Under the pieces are notes generated by a model. It made no database searches. It had not been told where the DNA came from and worked only from the letters and a program-made list of their open reading frames with translations. 64,000 nt of DNA, taken from NCBI GenBank assembly GCA_002716625.1, contig PBAS01000032.1, positions 1 through 64,000 on the forward strand, given 5' to 3'. This DNA comes from Phycisphaeraceae bacterium. GTDB taxonomy: Bacteria; Planctomycetota; Phycisphaerae; Phycisphaerales; Phycisphaeraceae. Positions 1 through 7,300 of this stretch are shown here, piece after piece. The position numbers and the translations under genes are program-made. Each line of letters begins with the position of its first letter. Positions within the stretch are counted from its first letter, which is position 1.

Positions 1-375
1 AATCATGTTTACCAATTCAGGGCAGGCTGATGCAGTTTCGGCCATCTGCTTGGCCTCTGCCAAGTTCATGCACATTCGGGCTTGACAAAAGCAGTGTTTG
101 CCTGCCTGCAGGCAGGCGATTGACATCTCTGCGTGCATATAAGGCCAGGTTCCTATAAATACAGCATCCAAGTCAGGTCGGTGTATAAGTGATTTCCAAT
201 CTTCGACGATTTCGGGAATATCAAAATCTGCAGCAATTCTTTCGGCACTGCTACGGCTACGGTTGCAAACGGCCACGACTTCAACATTGTTGAGTGCCGC
301 TAGGCCTGGTAGGTGTCGGACTCGGCAAATGTCTCCAGCGCCAATAAAACCAATTCGAATGGTCTGCTCATTCAC
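1..375 (-). CDS. Gfo/Idh/MocA family oxidoreductase, N-terminal part (runs off the window)
   Basis: The reverse strand from a GTG at 375 reads into the window edge and encodes a Rossmann NAD(P)-binding start: VNEQTIRIGFIGAGDICRVR, followed by an NRSRSSAER segment, the LDAVFIGTWPYMHAEM strand and GKHCFCQARM, the place where most family members have a GKHVxxEKP motif. The Gln-Ala-Arg variant there is, as I recall, also found in sugar-related members. A Shine-Dalgarno (AGGAG) lies about nine bases upstream of the GTG, supporting the start. These enzymes oxidise or reduce sugars and cyclitols with NAD(P); the substrate cannot be told from 125 residues. The gene is transcribed away from the mla-type group, and the remainder lies outside the window. 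Confidence 0.88.
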   Translation of the reverse strand, partial: MNEQTIRIGFIGAGDICRVRHLPGLAALNNVEVVAVCNRSRSSAERIAADFDIPEIVEDWKSLIHRPDLDAVFIGTWPYMHAEMSIACLQAGKHCFCQARMCMNLAEAKQMAETASACPELVNMI

Positions 376-614
376 GTTTAATTACTCCTTCTCATACCGA
401 TGATCCTAACGGGGGTACCTGTTCTGCCTTATGATGGGTGCGTAGTGCAGTTATGGAATTCTCATGTGAACCCACGGCCGTATTTTGGACGGATTTTCAC
501 AATGGTTCATGACTGTAGTTAAGTATCCAGTACCATGGTGTCAAATTAGGTAAATTTCGCTGTATATGCTCTCCCAGCGAACTTTTACCAATCATTCGCA
601 GGTGCCATCTAAGG

Positions 615-766
615 ATGAGGGAATATTTCACCTCCAATCTACTCGCCTCTTGCAATCATTTTGAGCCGGCGATATTATCTTCGCCGTTCTTTGGAAGGAG
701 AAATATTATTCCATTTGCCCCCGGAAGGGCTCGGCTTGGCTTCGGCCTTGCCGGGCCTTTTTTTTG
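615..766 (+). ncRNA. Candidate structured RNA: leader or small RNA ending in an intrinsic terminator
   Basis: The 524 bases between the divergent oxidoreductase start (375) and the next lipoprotein (900) hold no convincing gene. Within them 619-635 can pair with 692-712 (core AATATTTC with GAAATATT), enclosing a perfect hairpin CGGCGA (667-672) with TCGCCG (681-686). A strong rho-independent terminator follows at 728-765. The terminator works on the forward strand, yet no forward protein gene precedes it, so it should end either a small RNA or a regulated leader of the 900-4140 group. No known RNA family was recognised. The 5' end is a guess. Confidence 0.4.
728..765 (+). terminator. Strong intrinsic terminator
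   Basis: GGCTCGGCTTGGC (728-740) pairs with GCCTTGCCGGGCC (745-757) around a TTCG tetraloop, with one G-T pair and two T-T mismatches, and is followed directly by eight T (758-765). The reverse strand has no T-run after the stem, so the terminator acts on forward transcripts. It lies 134 bases before the lipoprotein start at 900 and has no protein gene upstream on its strand. Confidence 0.85.
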
Positions 767-899
767 TTACTTGTCTATAGGGAGGATAAGAAAATTAGGT
801 AGGCGGATAGAGATGCTGATCGATCGAACATTGAAATAATGAGGCTCGCATGCAAAAACACCATGCAAGCAGTAGATTACAAGGTCCAGGTTGTTTTTA

Positions 900-1634
900 A
901 TGCGTACATTCCATCTATTTGGTTTCGGCGTTTCAGTCGCCTGTATGGCTGTTGGGTGTATGCCAATTGGCAAGCATATAAAAGAGTCAATTCCAGCGCC
1001 GGTTCTGGTGGGATCTACCGATCTACTGCAACTTCCGCATGTTACGGTTGATCGCAAGAATCAATTGGTTGATATAGAGGCGATGGTGGTGATGCAATCA
1101 ACATTAGACGGTCAATGGCTTGAGTTGCTGGCCTGTACTGAAAATGGCCGGACGCATGAGTCAATCCTGGCCGTTAAGGCCCGTCCAAGTCATATCCATT
1201 ACGCGTTGTTATTGGTGGGCTCGGACCCTGGCACGCCGATGGTATGGGGTATCCATCATGACCATGTGAAGATTGAGAAGCATCCTTCCGGTACATCCAT
1301 CGCGATTTCTGCTATTTATCAAGACGAAAATGGAAAGGTTGTTCATGTGCCAGTGAACCAGTGGGTTGTTAACCGGTACACGAATAAACCGCTGGCGGAT
1401 AACATTTGGCTCTTTACCGGTTCCCGTTTTATCGAATCTTCAGGTCGGAGAATTTATCAAGCAGATCGTGACGGCACAATTGTGTCATTGGTTCATTTTG
1501 GAGACGATCTCCTAGCACGGCCGACAGAGTTGACCAATCGCAATGATGGTGAAGCGTGGGGTGCTGCAGATGGCGTTATTCCGCCAGTCGGTACATTGGT
1601 CACGCTGCGTTTACGTCCGGCTGATTTGCCATGA
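900..1634 (+). CDS. YdjY-like exported lipoprotein
   Basis: This 244-residue protein starts with a lipoprotein signal: a short basic n-region, a hydrophobic stretch and a lipobox ending AVGC at about residue 20. The mature part (LVDIEAMVVMQ, WLELLACTENGRTHESIL, IHYALLLVG) resembles the YdjY-type domain common in planctomycetes, whose biochemical role I do not know. The frame is open upstream with a TTG at 891, but the ATG at 900 gives a normal signal peptide and has an AGG about nine bases upstream. It sits 35 bases before mlaF and is probably cotranscribed with it, so it may work at the cell envelope. The family assignment rests on recall of the pattern and is moderate. Confidence 0.72.
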   Translation: MRTFHLFGFGVSVACMAVGCMPIGKHIKESIPAPVLVGSTDLLQLPHVTVDRKNQLVDIEAMVVMQSTLDGQWLELLACTENGRTHESILAVKARPSHIHYALLLVGSDPGTPMVWGIHHDHVKIEKHPSGTSIAISAIYQDENGKVVHVPVNQWVVNRYTNKPLADNIWLFTGSRFIESSGRRIYQADRDGTIVSLVHFGDDLLARPTELTNRNDGEAWGAADGVIPPVGTLVTLRLRPADLP

Positions 1635-1669
1635 CCCGATTTTATTTTACGTATTGATATACTTATCCC

Positions 1670-2563
1670 ATGCTCACTTCAGCGATAGATTCAGGATCCA
1701 CATCTGCAATCTGTGTCCGAAAACTTGTCAAGCGGTTTGACGGCAACACCGTGCTCGATGGGATCGATCTGGAAGTCTTTGAAGGTGAGACCATGGTTGT
1801 CATGGGTGGGTCGGGGTCTGGCAAGAGCACCTTGTTGAGGCACATGATAGGCTCACTGCGACCCGATGAGGGGACGATCGAATTATTGGGTACCCAGATC
1901 ACCGGTATCAATGAGAAGCAGCTCAACGACTTGCGTAAGAAAATTGGGATTCTTTTCCAGTCTGGTGCACTATTCAACTCGATGACCTTGCGTGAAAATG
2001 TGGCGTTGCCCCTGACCGAGCATACGCAACTCGACCCAACGACCATTGATATCATGGTGAAGATTAAGCTTGAACTCGTCGGATTGCGCGAACATGCGGA
2101 GAAATATCCCGCACAAATTAGTGGTGGCATGAAGAAAAGGGCGGGGTTGGCTCGTGCTCTTGCACTGGATCCCCGAATTCTGTTCTACGATGAGCCCTCT
2201 GCAGGTCTTGACCCAGTGACCAGTGCGGAGATCGATCAATTGATTATTTCGTTGTCAAAACAGCTCGGTGTCACAAGCGTCGTGGTGACACATGAAATGG
2301 ATTCAGCCTTTGCCATTGCGGACCGGATGTGTATGCTCGACAAAGGGAAGATGCTCCTTGTCGAGCAGCGGCAATATTTTGAACAATTGCGCGACAGCAC
2401 TGGCCCCCAGGATGAAACTGGTTTGTTAGTGCGGCAGTTTCTTCGTGGTGAACCTCAGGGACCTTTGACACAGCGTAGGCAAGCAACGAATTATGTGGAG
2501 GACCTACTTGGAGAAGCATCGCTTCTTATGGCCCCCCGTCCATCTGTGCAGACAACCCGATGA
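1670..2563 (+). CDS. mlaF: MlaF-type ABC transporter ATP-binding protein
   Basis: ATPase of 297 residues for an MCE/Mla-type lipid transporter. Walker A GGSGSGKST lies at about residues 46-54, the Q-loop in GILFQSGALF, the signature ISGGMKKRAGLARAL at about 147-161 and Walker B ILFYDEPSAGLDP after it. The GALF Q-loop region and GGMKKR signature are typical of MlaF/MkL ATPases. The stop overlaps the start of the MCE protein by four bases (ATGA), which implies coupled translation. In Mla systems the permease MlaE normally lies between these genes or close by; none is present here. The C-terminal 35 residues extend beyond the usual fold and are not conserved to my eye. Confidence 0.9.
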   Translation: MLTSAIDSGSTSAICVRKLVKRFDGNTVLDGIDLEVFEGETMVVMGGSGSGKSTLLRHMIGSLRPDEGTIELLGTQITGINEKQLNDLRKKIGILFQSGALFNSMTLRENVALPLTEHTQLDPTTIDIMVKIKLELVGLREHAEKYPAQISGGMKKRAGLARALALDPRILFYDEPSAGLDPVTSAEIDQLIISLSKQLGVTSVVVTHEMDSAFAIADRMCMLDKGKMLLVEQRQYFEQLRDSTGPQDETGLLVRQFLRGEPQGPLTQRRQATNYVEDLLGEASLLMAPRPSVQTTR

Positions 2564-3801
2564 CCCCACAACGTGACAATATGAAGGCGGGCCTCTTCGT
2601 CCTGATGGGGATTCTGATTTTTTTGTTTGTGGTATATACCCTGTTTGATTTTGAACGGTTGTTTGAACAAACACAACAGGTCAAAGTTTCATATACCCTT
2701 GATGATGGACTCAAGGGTCTCAAGGTGGGGGCTGCTGTCACACTTGGTCATGCGACAATAGGTGAGGTGGTTAATATTCAAAACCAGTGGCAGGAGGAGA
2801 CGAACCGTGTTGTTGGCAAGGTGGTGACCGCATCATTTCCCAAACAGTACGCGATCTGTCAAAACGCTATTTTTGAACTTAATGTGCCAACGTTTGGGAC
2901 AAGCACAACCTTGAATATTCGGGACATTGGCGCTGGAGAAATGTATGAGATTGGTACGATTATCCCTGGCACGATCGGTACGATGTTGATTGTTGACGAG
3001 ATCATCGTCAATGCCGGAATTGGTGAAACCCAGCGACGCCAGTTTAGGCAGATTGTCGAAAATATTGAATCGATCACCACGCGAATCCGGGAGGACTACG
3101 CAATATTGATGCCGGAGCTCAAACTTACAATTACCGAAGCCAAGGCCATCATGGCAAAGTTCCATGACGCTGTGGCGGACGTTAAATCCGTGACCACGGA
3201 CCTGGCGAATCGCAAGGATATGTGGTTTGAACGTGTTGACGGCATGACCGGGTCAGCCAAGGACAGTTTTGATAGGGTTCGAGATCTAATTCGGGATAAG
3301 GAACCAGCTTTACGCGAAACAGTGGACCAAGTTCATGACGTCACCAAGAGCTTGCGTGACAGGACAATCCATCAGATTGATGAGGTGATGCTCAAAGCCA
3401 ATGCAGCCTTGGGTAATTTCAAGATGACATCATCCAGGATCAAATCCTTTGTTACCGGCCAACGCCCGGTATTGGAGCGGGCATTGGCCAATGCCCAACT
3501 CACCACGGATCAGCTTAAGTTGGCTGCCATTGAGGTGCGACGATCGCCTTGGCGATTGTTGTATAAGCCCGGCGATGATGAATTGGAAACGGATAATCTC
3601 TATGACGCGGCCCGTTCTTTTGCTCAAGCAGCTGGAGCCCTTGACGCAACGGTGATGAGTCTTCAGGCGATTCTTGCAGATCCATCGGGGGACAACGAGC
3701 AGATTCAGGAGATGCTCGATCATCTGGAGGCGTTGTTCACCAAGTTTGAGCAGACTGAACGTGTCTTTTGGGATTCGTTAAAGTCCCAGAAAGGGTTATG
3801 A
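2560..3801 (+). CDS. mlaD: MlaD-family (MCE domain) lipid transport protein
   Basis: A 413-residue protein with an N-terminal membrane anchor (AGLFVLMGILIFLFVVYTLF, about residues 10-29), then an MCE domain (VKVSYTLDDGLKGLKVGAAV, GEVVNI, GTIIPGT) up to about residue 130. The remaining 280 residues are mostly helical and charged, probably a long coiled coil, with no other recognised domain. MCE proteins bind lipids in the periplasm and pass them to or from an inner-membrane ABC complex. The four-base overlap with mlaF supports a shared complex. E. coli MlaD is much shorter; the long C-terminal helix region resembles that of larger MCE proteins. Confidence 0.88.
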   Translation: MTPQRDNMKAGLFVLMGILIFLFVVYTLFDFERLFEQTQQVKVSYTLDDGLKGLKVGAAVTLGHATIGEVVNIQNQWQEETNRVVGKVVTASFPKQYAICQNAIFELNVPTFGTSTTLNIRDIGAGEMYEIGTIIPGTIGTMLIVDEIIVNAGIGETQRRQFRQIVENIESITTRIREDYAILMPELKLTITEAKAIMAKFHDAVADVKSVTTDLANRKDMWFERVDGMTGSAKDSFDRVRDLIRDKEPALRETVDQVHDVTKSLRDRTIHQIDEVMLKANAALGNFKMTSSRIKSFVTGQRPVLERALANAQLTTDQLKLAAIEVRRSPWRLLYKPGDDELETDNLYDAARSFAQAAGALDATVMSLQAILADPSGDNEQIQEMLDHLEALFTKFEQTERVFWDSLKSQKGL

Positions 3802-3879
3802 TTCAGCCGTTGACATAGGCTCCAGTACACGTGACAATATGCGTGTGTAGAGACATCCGACCTTAGAGGTGTGTGATCA

Positions 3880-4140
3880 ATGAAAAATAGGGTTTACTCG
3901 GTGATTCTGGTGATTGCCTTGGGTTCAATGGTGGGTGGATGTGCTGCGCCGCTCCAGCCGGTGCAAGAAGTCCGCAGGTCCCTTAGCCCCAATCGGGACG
4001 GCATCCCGCTATCATTGGGAGAGCGACTCAACCGTCGGGCTCAAACCCGGGATCTAAATACCCGCCAAATTCCTGATGATTGGGATTCAATTTGGCTCAA
4101 TGATCGTCCATTACGCATGAGTCTTTATCCAATTCCCTAA
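3880..4140 (+). CDS. Small lipoprotein following the mla-type genes
   Basis: An 86-residue protein starting MKNRVYSVILVIALGSMVGG followed by the lipobox cysteine, so it should be exported and lipid-anchored. The mature 65 residues are polar with many arginines and prolines and match no family I recognise. It lies 78 bases after mlaD on the same strand and could be an outer-membrane or accessory component of the same transport system; that is inference from position only. The 195 bases that follow, up to the convergent carB stop, contain no feature I can support. Confidence 0.72.
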   Translation: MKNRVYSVILVIALGSMVGGCAAPLQPVQEVRRSLSPNRDGIPLSLGERLNRRAQTRDLNTRQIPDDWDSIWLNDRPLRMSLYPIP

Positions 4141-4335: not shown

Positions 4336-7300
4336 CTAGGCATGTTCAGGAACCAACTTGCTGTTCGTGCTGAACTCCTGATGGTAATCCTGCAAGGCAC
4401 TGACTGACCATTGTCCACTGCGCAGGGCAGTAATTGCACGAACTGCTGCTGCAGCACCCGTTACCGTTGTGATCATGGGAACATGGAACCGGACTGCCAG
4501 GGCACGTAACTGGCCCTCATCACTGTTGATTCCCTTGTGGGTGGGCGTATTGATCAGAAGGGCAAGTTCTCGATTCTTGATCAAGTCCTCGCAATTGGGT
4601 CGACCTTCGCTAATCTTCTGGACACGTTTGGTTGTGACATCCTGCTCTGCAAGGTAAGCATGGGTGCCTGATGTGGTGAATAGTTCAAACCCCATCTCGA
4701 TCAAGGTGCGAGCAATGTCGATGATTTGTGGCTTGTTGCTGTCACGAACTGACAAAAACACCTTTCCTTTAGATGGCAGGATGGTGTCAGCTGCCATTTG
4801 GGCTTTGGCGAAAGCAATTGGAAACCCGGGGTCAATACCCATGACCTCGCCGGTCGATCGCATCTCTGGGCCCAGGATTACATCAACACCAGGGAACTTA
4901 CTGAACGGGAACACGGATTCCTTGACCGAAGTATGAGTTGGAATCACCGTCTGGGTCACGCCTAGGTCTGACAGCTGTGGTTGGATCATGACTTTTGCCG
5001 CGATTCGTGCCCAGGAAACCCCTGTTGCTTTACTGACAAACGGAACGGTGCGCGAGGCTCGCGGATTTACTTCAAGTACGAACACCTCGTACTCGTCATT
5101 GGCATCACCAGGTCGGCGGATCGCGTATTGAACGTTCATCAAACCCCGAACCCGTAACGATGCAGCCAGTCGGGTGGTTTGGCTTACCAGTTCATCAATG
5201 ACACGCTGGGGTAAAGAATGTGGTGGGATTGCACATGCACTGTCTCCTGAATGTATGCCAGCCTCTTCAATGTGTTCCATCACACCGCAGACGACCGCAG
5301 ATTCGTCCGGTTTTTCATCGGTTGTTGATTTGATGCCGTTATGGCGAAAATCAGCCACAACGTCGACATCCACCTCAATTGCCTCAGCAAGAAACTTGTC
5401 AATCAATACGGGTGCCCGGGTTAAGTCACTGACATTAACAGCTGAGTTCATGTAGTAAACCAATTGTTGCTCAGCGTAACAGGTCTCCATGCCACGGCCG
5501 CCCAGGACATAGCTGGGGCGTACCAGGACTGGATAGCCGATTCGGGTGGCGATGTTAACCGCTTCATCAAGGGAGTATGCAATCCCATTGTCCGGCTGGC
5601 GCAACTTGAGCGAATTTAAAAGTTGCGCGAAGCGTTTGCGATCTTCGGCAAGATCAATGGAATCAACACTCGTGCCGATGACCGGAACGCCCGCTAGTTC
5701 CAGTCCATGCGCTAAGTTCAGCGGTGTCTGGCCGCCAAACTGGACAATTACCCCGTGTAGTTTGCCATCAGGGACACCCCCGGAATCATTCAGCAAAGGT
5801 CCACCATTTAACTTTTCACAAACGTTTAGCACATCTTCAAGCGTCAAGGGCTCAAAGAAAAGAAGATCAGAGGTGTCGTAATCTGTAGAGACGGTTTCTG
5901 GGTTCGAATTAACCATGACTGACTCATAGCCCAATTCCACGGCCGCAAAGGCGGCTTGAACGCAGCAGTAATCAAATTCAATCCCCTGGCCAATTCGATT
6001 GGGTCCACCGCCTAATACGACCACCTTCTTTTTGTCGCCAAGGCGGATCTCATTGTCATAAAACGTCGTCGTTTTACCGGGGCCCCAATTTGTGATCGGT
6101 GATTCGTAGGTGGAGTAGTAGTAGGGCGTGGCTGCTTCAAACTCGGCGGAACAGGTATCAACAAGCTTGAAAACCGGCTCGATACCCAACGACTGGCGAT
6201 ACCGGCGCACCTCCAGGATGGTTTCCGAACTGATGTGCCCAAGATAGATGCATGCTAATTGTGCATCGCAGTAGCCCAACTGCTTGGCCTTGAATAACAC
6301 ATCACGCGGTAGATCCTGTAATTTGTTGTGGCTGATGAGGACCTGCTCAAATTCAATTAATTGGTGTATCTGGTCAAGAAACCATGGGTCAATATGCGTC
6401 GCGTCATGAACTTGTTCAAGTGACCAGCCGAGCTTGAATGCGTACCGGATATAGTACAGCCGACCTTGCGATGGGACATGTAATTTTCGACGCAGCTTCT
6501 GAGCCGGGATGGGCCACTCTGTTTCATCCAACTGAAGCGAGCCGGTTTTGGCCTTTTCAGCCACGGCTCCATGGCTGATGCCAAGGTCCTGTGCAAGACT
6601 TGTAATCTGGTTTTTCTCCTTGGCATTTAATTCTGCCAAGCAGCGAACGTCCTGGTGAAGCAATGCGGCGGCTTTTAGTGGTGAAATATCTCCTGCAACC
6701 CGCTGGATCCTGCCAAGTGAAGTGGGGTGCTCGATGTTTAACCATTGCAAGGTGGTGCGTAGGGAACTTAGCCACTTATCCTGTTCGTCGAGGCCAAGGC
6801 CAAACCGCTTGACCTCCATGGATCGGATGCCCTTTTGCAGACTTTCCTTGAAAGTACGACCGATGCTCATTGCCTCGCCAACACTTTTCATCTGTGTGGT
6901 CAGGGTTTCATCTGCTTCAGGGAACTTCTCGAATGTCCATCGAGGGATTTTGGTCACCACGTAATCGATGGTTGGTTCAAAACAAGCAACTGTCTTGCCA
7001 GTGATGTCGTTGGGTAGTTCCCACAGCGTGTAGCCCACAGCAAGCTTGGCAGCAAGTTTGGCGATGGGGAATCCAGTTGCTTTGGAAGCCAGTGCCGATG
7101 AACGGGATACGCGTGGGTTCATCTCGATGACGAACATTTCCCCAGTGTCCGGATCAATGGAGAACTGGATATTTGAGCCACCGGTTTCAACACCAATCGC
7201 GCGGATGATAGCAATCGCCGCGTCTCGCATCCGCTGGTATTCTTTGTCCGTAAGTGTTTGAGCGGGTGCGACGGTAATTGAATCGCCTGTGTGAACCCCC

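Follow-up and report, generated by a model that had tools for sequence, protein, structure and literature searches.

The locus and its predicted transcript

The window analysed here is a stretch of 64,000 nucleotides from a Phycisphaeraceae bacterium (contig PBAS01000032.1). Positions 900–4140 of the window form a compact co-directional run, in which a YdjY lipoprotein gene is followed downstream by an MlaF-like gene, an MCE/MlaD-like gene and a small ORF (Table 1). The small ORF (3880–4140) has a lipoprotein-like start by eye. Upstream of ydjY lie a promoter-like site and an intrinsic terminator, which together delimit a predicted small RNA. A 74-aa frame at 615–839 gave no Pfam match.

Table 1. 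Features of the locus, in window positions.
Feature	Position	Strand	Basis and remarks
Sigma70-like promoter (predicted)	650–678	+	Consensus scan; TTGCAA 650–655, 17-nt spacer, TATTAT 673–678
Predicted small RNA, about 80 nt	686–765	+	Promoter plus terminator; inferred start at 683–686
5′ hairpin UGGAA...UUCCA (predicted)	692–713	+	Weak in the window copy, z −0.64
Shared motif UUUGCCCCCGGAAG	714–727	+	GCCCCC predicted open, GGAA mostly paired
Intrinsic terminator	728–765	+	8-bp lower stem, UUCG loop, 8 U
YdjY-domain lipoprotein gene	900–1634	+	NCBIfam NF040466, 140.2 bits (cut-off 50); start codon 891 or 900 uncertain
MlaF-like ATPase and MCE/MlaD-like genes	1670–3801	+	PF00005; best NCBIfam match MlaF, plus MlaD, both below cut-offs

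The terminator is real, as a sequence-only reading of this DNA had proposed from its TTCG loop and eight T. The pairs 728–735/750–757 and 738–740/745–747 enclose the loop at 741–744, and the T run occupies 758–765. For the segment 609–766 (z −3.5), all 200 shuffles folded less well. When the terminator was removed, folding of 609–713 was marginal (z −1.77, with 10 of 200 shuffles equally good). In the predicted fold of the window copy, GGAA pairs with the U tail.

The promoter-like site at 650–678 scored 8.3. The consensus scan found four promoter-like sites in window positions 1–3000, against 4.1 expected, which is chance level; the weight given to the site comes from the recurrence of such sites in relatives. 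The best site in 1–649, at about 509–536, scored 7.4, slightly below the 7.5 taken as threshold; in 765–891 the top score was 6.7. A longer transcript from about 509–536, which would span both arms of a proposed long-range stem, is unlikely.

That long-range stem (619–635 with 692–712) had been read as part of a structured leader. Its arms exist as written; the promoter-like pair sits between them and the 5′ arm lies upstream of the predicted start, which argues against the stem as an RNA structure. With a start near 686, both the 5′ arm and the word GAGCC at 663–667 would be untranscribed. GAGCC and its suggested antiterminator partner GGCTC (728–732) are both present, and the former falls in the promoter spacer, which speaks against the antiterminator role. 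The "perfect hairpin" enclosed by the stem (667–686) straddles the −10 box. By eye, nothing corresponding to the long-range stem was seen in the relatives inspected; what recurred was window 714–765 plus a promoter-like site at variable distance. The long-range "leader" would thus mostly not be RNA.

Family members in related genomes

The segment 600–780 was compared by BLASTN with 51 genomes of the same taxonomic family. The stronger matches defined a core of about 714–765 with 86–100% identity, other genera included, and no strong match in these 51 genomes reached further upstream. A pattern scan of a named genome collection gave 106 stretches. Among the 80 listed, 76 ran on into a terminator or were truncated at the record end, and four (L085, L120, L131, and L141) were chance. 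The titles of the 76 comprised 51 Phycisphaer- names, 22 other planctomycete names, and three with only 'bacterium'; as recorded, the 22 include one 'Rhodopirellula sp.', one 'Candidatus Kuenenia', and three 'Planctomycetaceae'. Most named records were titled Phycisphaerales, Phycisphaerae, or Planctomycetota. A 58-position covariance model matched 47 of the 51 family genomes at E ≤ 1e-3, with 1–12 copies per genome within the taxonomic family and one in the window's own genome. In a sample of the phylum, matches at E ≤ 1e-5 came from 20 of 392 genomes; all 20 belong to the window's order, which has 31 genomes among those listed. This search scored 14 candidates per genome; it missed, for instance, the G043 copy matched in the family genomes, and weak copies elsewhere may have escaped it too.

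A total of 164 collected copies gave 143 non-identical copies after duplicate removal, with close relatives and same-genome paralogues retained. The set leaves out seven of the 80 listed loci, namely the four chance stretches and three cut by the locus end (L084, L092, and L138). Four of 67 model hits were not carried (the window, counted separately, and three weak ones), and two of the 63 carried hits were dropped since the motif was missing (L206 and L221); L206 is without the GGAAG part. Alignment A1 takes in 65 of 87 sequences.

Against Rfam release 15 (4227 models), the window gave only two tRNAs above the gathering cut-off, and nine matches near the site were all far below it. A search with 20 of the family loci gave one tRNA only. 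No such RNA was described among the planctomycete-RNA papers listed from the open-licence literature, judged by title and start of abstract. On these two grounds, the family, absent from Rfam, is regarded as a new family of small regulatory RNA, itself a known kind.

The members consist of a promoter, usually a 5′ hairpin, an open (U)UUGCCCCC, GGAAG, and the terminator. The constant part of the 143 copies is (U)UUGCCCCCGGAAG immediately before the terminator, partly by selection. CCCCGGA was present in all 143 kept copies, for which selection had partly required it, and in the many copies collected by an exact pattern the invariance of the motif and of GGCTCGG is likewise partly due to selection. 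A promoter score of at least 7.5 within 110 nt upstream was obtained for 88 of 141 copies, whereas control windows reached it in 6 of 135 cases and shuffles in 11 of 141; the scorer and its threshold were our own and set after the sequences were seen, and the shuffles preserve base composition only. Predicted RNA lengths for the 87 copies that have both a promoter-like site and a U run spanned 55–109 nt (5th–95th percentile), with a median of 76 nt. The 5′ segment was at least 22 nt in 50 of these copies (mean z −2.42, with 44 below −1) and shorter in the other 37. The mean unpaired probability predicted for GCCCCC in 86 copies was 0.82–0.97, and that for GGAA was 0.40, 0.12, 0.12, and 0.11, meaning that GGAA is predicted to be mostly paired.

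Covariance modelling on relatives had been suggested as a check of the stems, and the terminator stems did covary. Among 66 distinct model hits, 95.7% of the terminator stem cells could pair (71.4% in shuffles), 143 cells were changed on both sides (36.2 in shuffles), and the covariation score was 0.650 (0.191 in shuffles); none of 500 shuffles reached the observed pairing share, both-sided cell count, or covariation score. The alignment of these hits was fitted to the model's structure and leans towards it. With the partner shifted by 1–3 columns, the covariation score fell to at most 0.16. Pairs changed on both sides were unexceptional in number (10 against 8.1, with 40 of 500 shuffles reaching 10).

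The copies overlapped long ORFs in 61 of 143 cases, compared with 611 of 715 random positions; with crude ORF calling, 28 of 143 still overlapped ORFs of at least 180 aa. The family thus fits a stand-alone small RNA, for which a promoter of its own and an intrinsic terminator outside genes are expected. This comparison with relatives lends good support to the suggestion of a small RNA at the site, and transcription of the predicted small RNA is inferred from its promoter-like site and terminator.

Two hairpins, CCC-GGAA-GGG and GCCC-CCGGAA-GGGC, were considered as the working fold and rejected: in copies whose stem differs, the motif is retained and the pairing is lost. One copy (L227, about 2501–2556, minus strand) carries CCCCCGGAA in tandem, with about three full copies of it in one small RNA. 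Tandem repeats resembling CCCCCGGAAGT were seen in L112 (about 6267–6310) and L220, with more CCCCGGAAG words outside the small RNA.

Neighbouring genes and possible read-through

The ydjY gene was found downstream within 3 kb of 44 of the 143 copies, on the same strand in 39 and inverted in five (L066, L080, L083, L117, and L133). Three copies adjoined mlaF without ydjY (cf. L003, L008, and L009). These neighbour counts are lower limits, as many loci span only about 1.5 kb per side. The other 96 copies lay by neither ydjY nor mlaF, and 83 of them were followed downstream by an ORF of 180 aa or more, with 42 on the plus and 41 on the minus strand. With a 120-aa limit the strands were 48 and 43, again showing no bias. 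ORF calling was crude: for the ydjY group it gave 26 plus and 11 minus, where the real numbers are 39 and 5.

A second, unnamed gene family adjoined 33 of the 143 copies, 23 of which also have ydjY. Its assignment by eye to the pterin-synthase/QueD type was dropped after the 150 residues tested gave no Pfam match. At four loci (L075, L107, L110, and L225), the copy lies between a histidine-kinase-like gene, so named by eye, and a CheX gene, the latter identified by PF13690 for one member.

The position upstream of ydjY was examined as a sign of a cis-acting leader, in which attenuation of the ydjY-mla operon would give rise to the terminated RNA, whose real function would lie in regulated read-through. 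In 38 of the 39 co-directional loci, the first in-frame ydjY start codon after the terminator was 57–170 nt from the motif; these gaps are lower limits, and real starts may lie further on. Of the 17 gaps before co-directional ydjY that measured 40 nt or more, only one contained a promoter-like site, with a mean score of 6.2 against 5.8 for shuffled sequence. These results hint that ydjY transcription may start at the small RNA promoter where the two are co-directional; in that case, the small RNA would at the same time form the attenuated front part of the ydjY mRNA.

Such a role as the real function is improbable. An attenuator would always precede the gene it regulates, on the same strand, whereas ydjY is inverted in 5 of 44 cases and the copies by neither ydjY nor mlaF are evenly distributed over both strands. 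The conserved antiterminator pairing that an attenuator would have is likewise not conserved: among 127 scored stems, 25 start with something other than GGC, of which three could still pair through G-U, and GCCC/GGGC is thus lost in about 22 of the 127 with the motif retained; the remaining 16 of the 143 stems were unscored, as the rule demands an uninterrupted register. The inverted loci and the lack of strand bias elsewhere argue that a cis role cannot be general, though ydjY adjacency recurs across distant loci. The riboswitch-like attenuator suggested by the sequence-only reading is disfavoured by the same observations and by the location of GAGCC in the promoter spacer.

Some small RNAs are derived from 5′ UTRs by premature termination. 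The present family resembles them in having a promoter, a terminator, and, at most ydjY loci, a co-directional downstream gene. It differs from them in its copies away from ydjY and mlaF, which have no co-directional bias. The site thus reads mainly as a stand-alone small RNA and may in addition feed ydjY-mla by read-through.

Probable mode of action and mobile copies

The explanation we favour, and hold to be somewhat better than even, is that the site is a small-RNA gene of about 80 nt, belonging to a multi-copy, order-wide family whose C-rich linker pairs in trans, with some read-through. RNA polymerase would start near 686 from the promoter at 650–678 and stop at the terminator at 765. The resulting RNA would consist of a 5′ hairpin, the exposed linker UUUGCCCCC, GGAAG, and a terminator hairpin with a U tail. 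Members would vary in their 5′ halves and have the linker in common. The linker would act as a seed that pairs with G-rich sites of mRNAs without Hfq, and at the window locus some polymerase would read through into ydjY-mla.

Hfq (PF17209) was detected in none of 41 genomes, where the control was positive in 5 of 14 known genomes and the window's own genome is 88% complete. The family is therefore not placed among Hfq-dependent small RNAs, whose hosts encode Hfq. A study of the mycobacterial B11 small RNA reports repression by way of a 5′ UTR whose six-G tract could be bound by either of two C-rich loops, in bacteria with no identified Hfq or ProQ (PMC10470900). The present family is similar to B11 / 6C, as described there, in its unpaired C-rich stretch, which in the mycobacterial RNAs is proposed to base-pair with G tracts in the 5′ regions of mRNAs; the hosts are alike in undetected Hfq, a likeness that concerns Hfq alone. 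Unlike B11 / 6C with their hairpins and two C-rich loops, the family has a single C run, predicted to lie in an open linker between hairpin and terminator. It is thus not a 6C RNA by predicted structure, and 6C was not among the Rfam matches of the window or of the 20 family loci. Because the exposed C run, the common linker, and undetected Hfq resemble the mycobacterial C-rich small RNAs, trans pairing with G-rich mRNA is considered the most likely mode of action by analogy.

C-rich seeds also occur in the UCCC small RNAs of Staphylococcus and the CUCCUCCC small RNAs of alphaproteobacteria, where several paralogues have one seed. By description, the paralogues of the present family likewise have one C-rich seed; unlike in those RNAs, the motif here runs straight into the terminator.

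Complements of the linker were counted in the window's own genome (G000). The word GGGGGCAAA, the complement of the open linker, occurred 20 times, compared with six for the reversed word. One of the 20 sites is the small RNA itself, the other 19 include no clear case of a ribosome-binding site, and no pattern was seen in the positions within this genome. Other G-rich complements were likewise commoner than their reverse, away from start codons; GCCCCCGGAA occurred four times, as did its reversed word. In the family loci, linker complements were not among the 14 top-ranked 8-mers, and the idea that the complementary word is in excess throughout the genome was rejected. An apparent excess of a complementary word before ATG (68 against 1) was discarded as mostly antisense of the small RNA itself, with 7 against 1 left after masking; away from ATG, the same word occurred 41 times and its reverse five times.

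A protein-binding RNA, as a CsrA sponge or a ligand of another RNA-binding protein with GGA as the contact, was also considered. CsrA was found in 41 of 41 genomes, GGA is present in all 143 kept copies (partly by selection), and the tandem CCCCCGGAA of L227 would suit such a role. The GGA is predicted to be mostly paired, with unpaired probabilities of 0.40, 0.12, and 0.12, and a CsrA sponge is less likely for this reason; a GGA contact also leaves the run of five C unexplained. Overall, protein binding has only a small chance of being the function.

Copies were also found in mobile elements. Six of the ten copies in G050 (CP087563; L199–L204) end related integrase-bearing elements. Five of these elements have an open frame of about 468 aa that stops 62–70 nt before the motif, and the two of its protein products tested were phage integrases (PF00589). 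The sixth element keeps its integrase end, apart from the rest. The common stretches range from about 0.36 and 1.6 kb up to one pair aligned over 17 kb. One element encodes a phage minor-tail protein, and another Dam and a primase-like protein. Homology between the elements stops just after the U run, which may coincide with the attachment site or lie close to it. At L199–L204 and L283–L288 in G050 and at L226 in G047, the small RNA lies at one end of such partly prophage-like elements, between the integrase gene and the homology end.

The six terminal copies could be taken to mean that prophages have spread a conserved sequence that serves as terminator or for attachment and has no function as an RNA. 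This would leave unexplained the promoter-like sites, the 5′ hairpins, and the recurrent ydjY adjacency elsewhere, and it is the least probable of the explanations considered. The G050 element copies have promoter-like sequence of their own by eye.

The small RNA with a trans-pairing linker, as favoured above, can be extended to a tentative and rather doubtful picture of the order. Phycisphaerales would have an order-wide Hfq-free system of paralogous small RNAs with variable 5′ hairpins and one C-rich pairing site; one old member would be linked to the locus of the envelope lipoprotein YdjY, and with a copy of their own prophages would tap the same network. In the table of one review, eight small RNAs are counted for the PVC group and 345 for Proteobacteria (PMC9029176), and going by that table, few seem catalogued for the phylum Planctomycetes. 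A recurring multi-copy family in bacteria with undetected Hfq offers a handle on their RNA regulation, and its place beside envelope lipoprotein and lipid-transport genes and in prophage-like copies leads to testable predictions.

A phage collection searched with the integrase-to-small-RNA stretch (L200:2480–4020) and a plasmid collection searched with window 640–770 gave no match. In viral contigs, three patterns gave 0, 2, and 16 stretches, and among these 18 only L291 looks real. It is a plausible copy at 541–599 (minus strand) of a 193-kb IMG/VR contig, with a different terminator stem and 31 bits.
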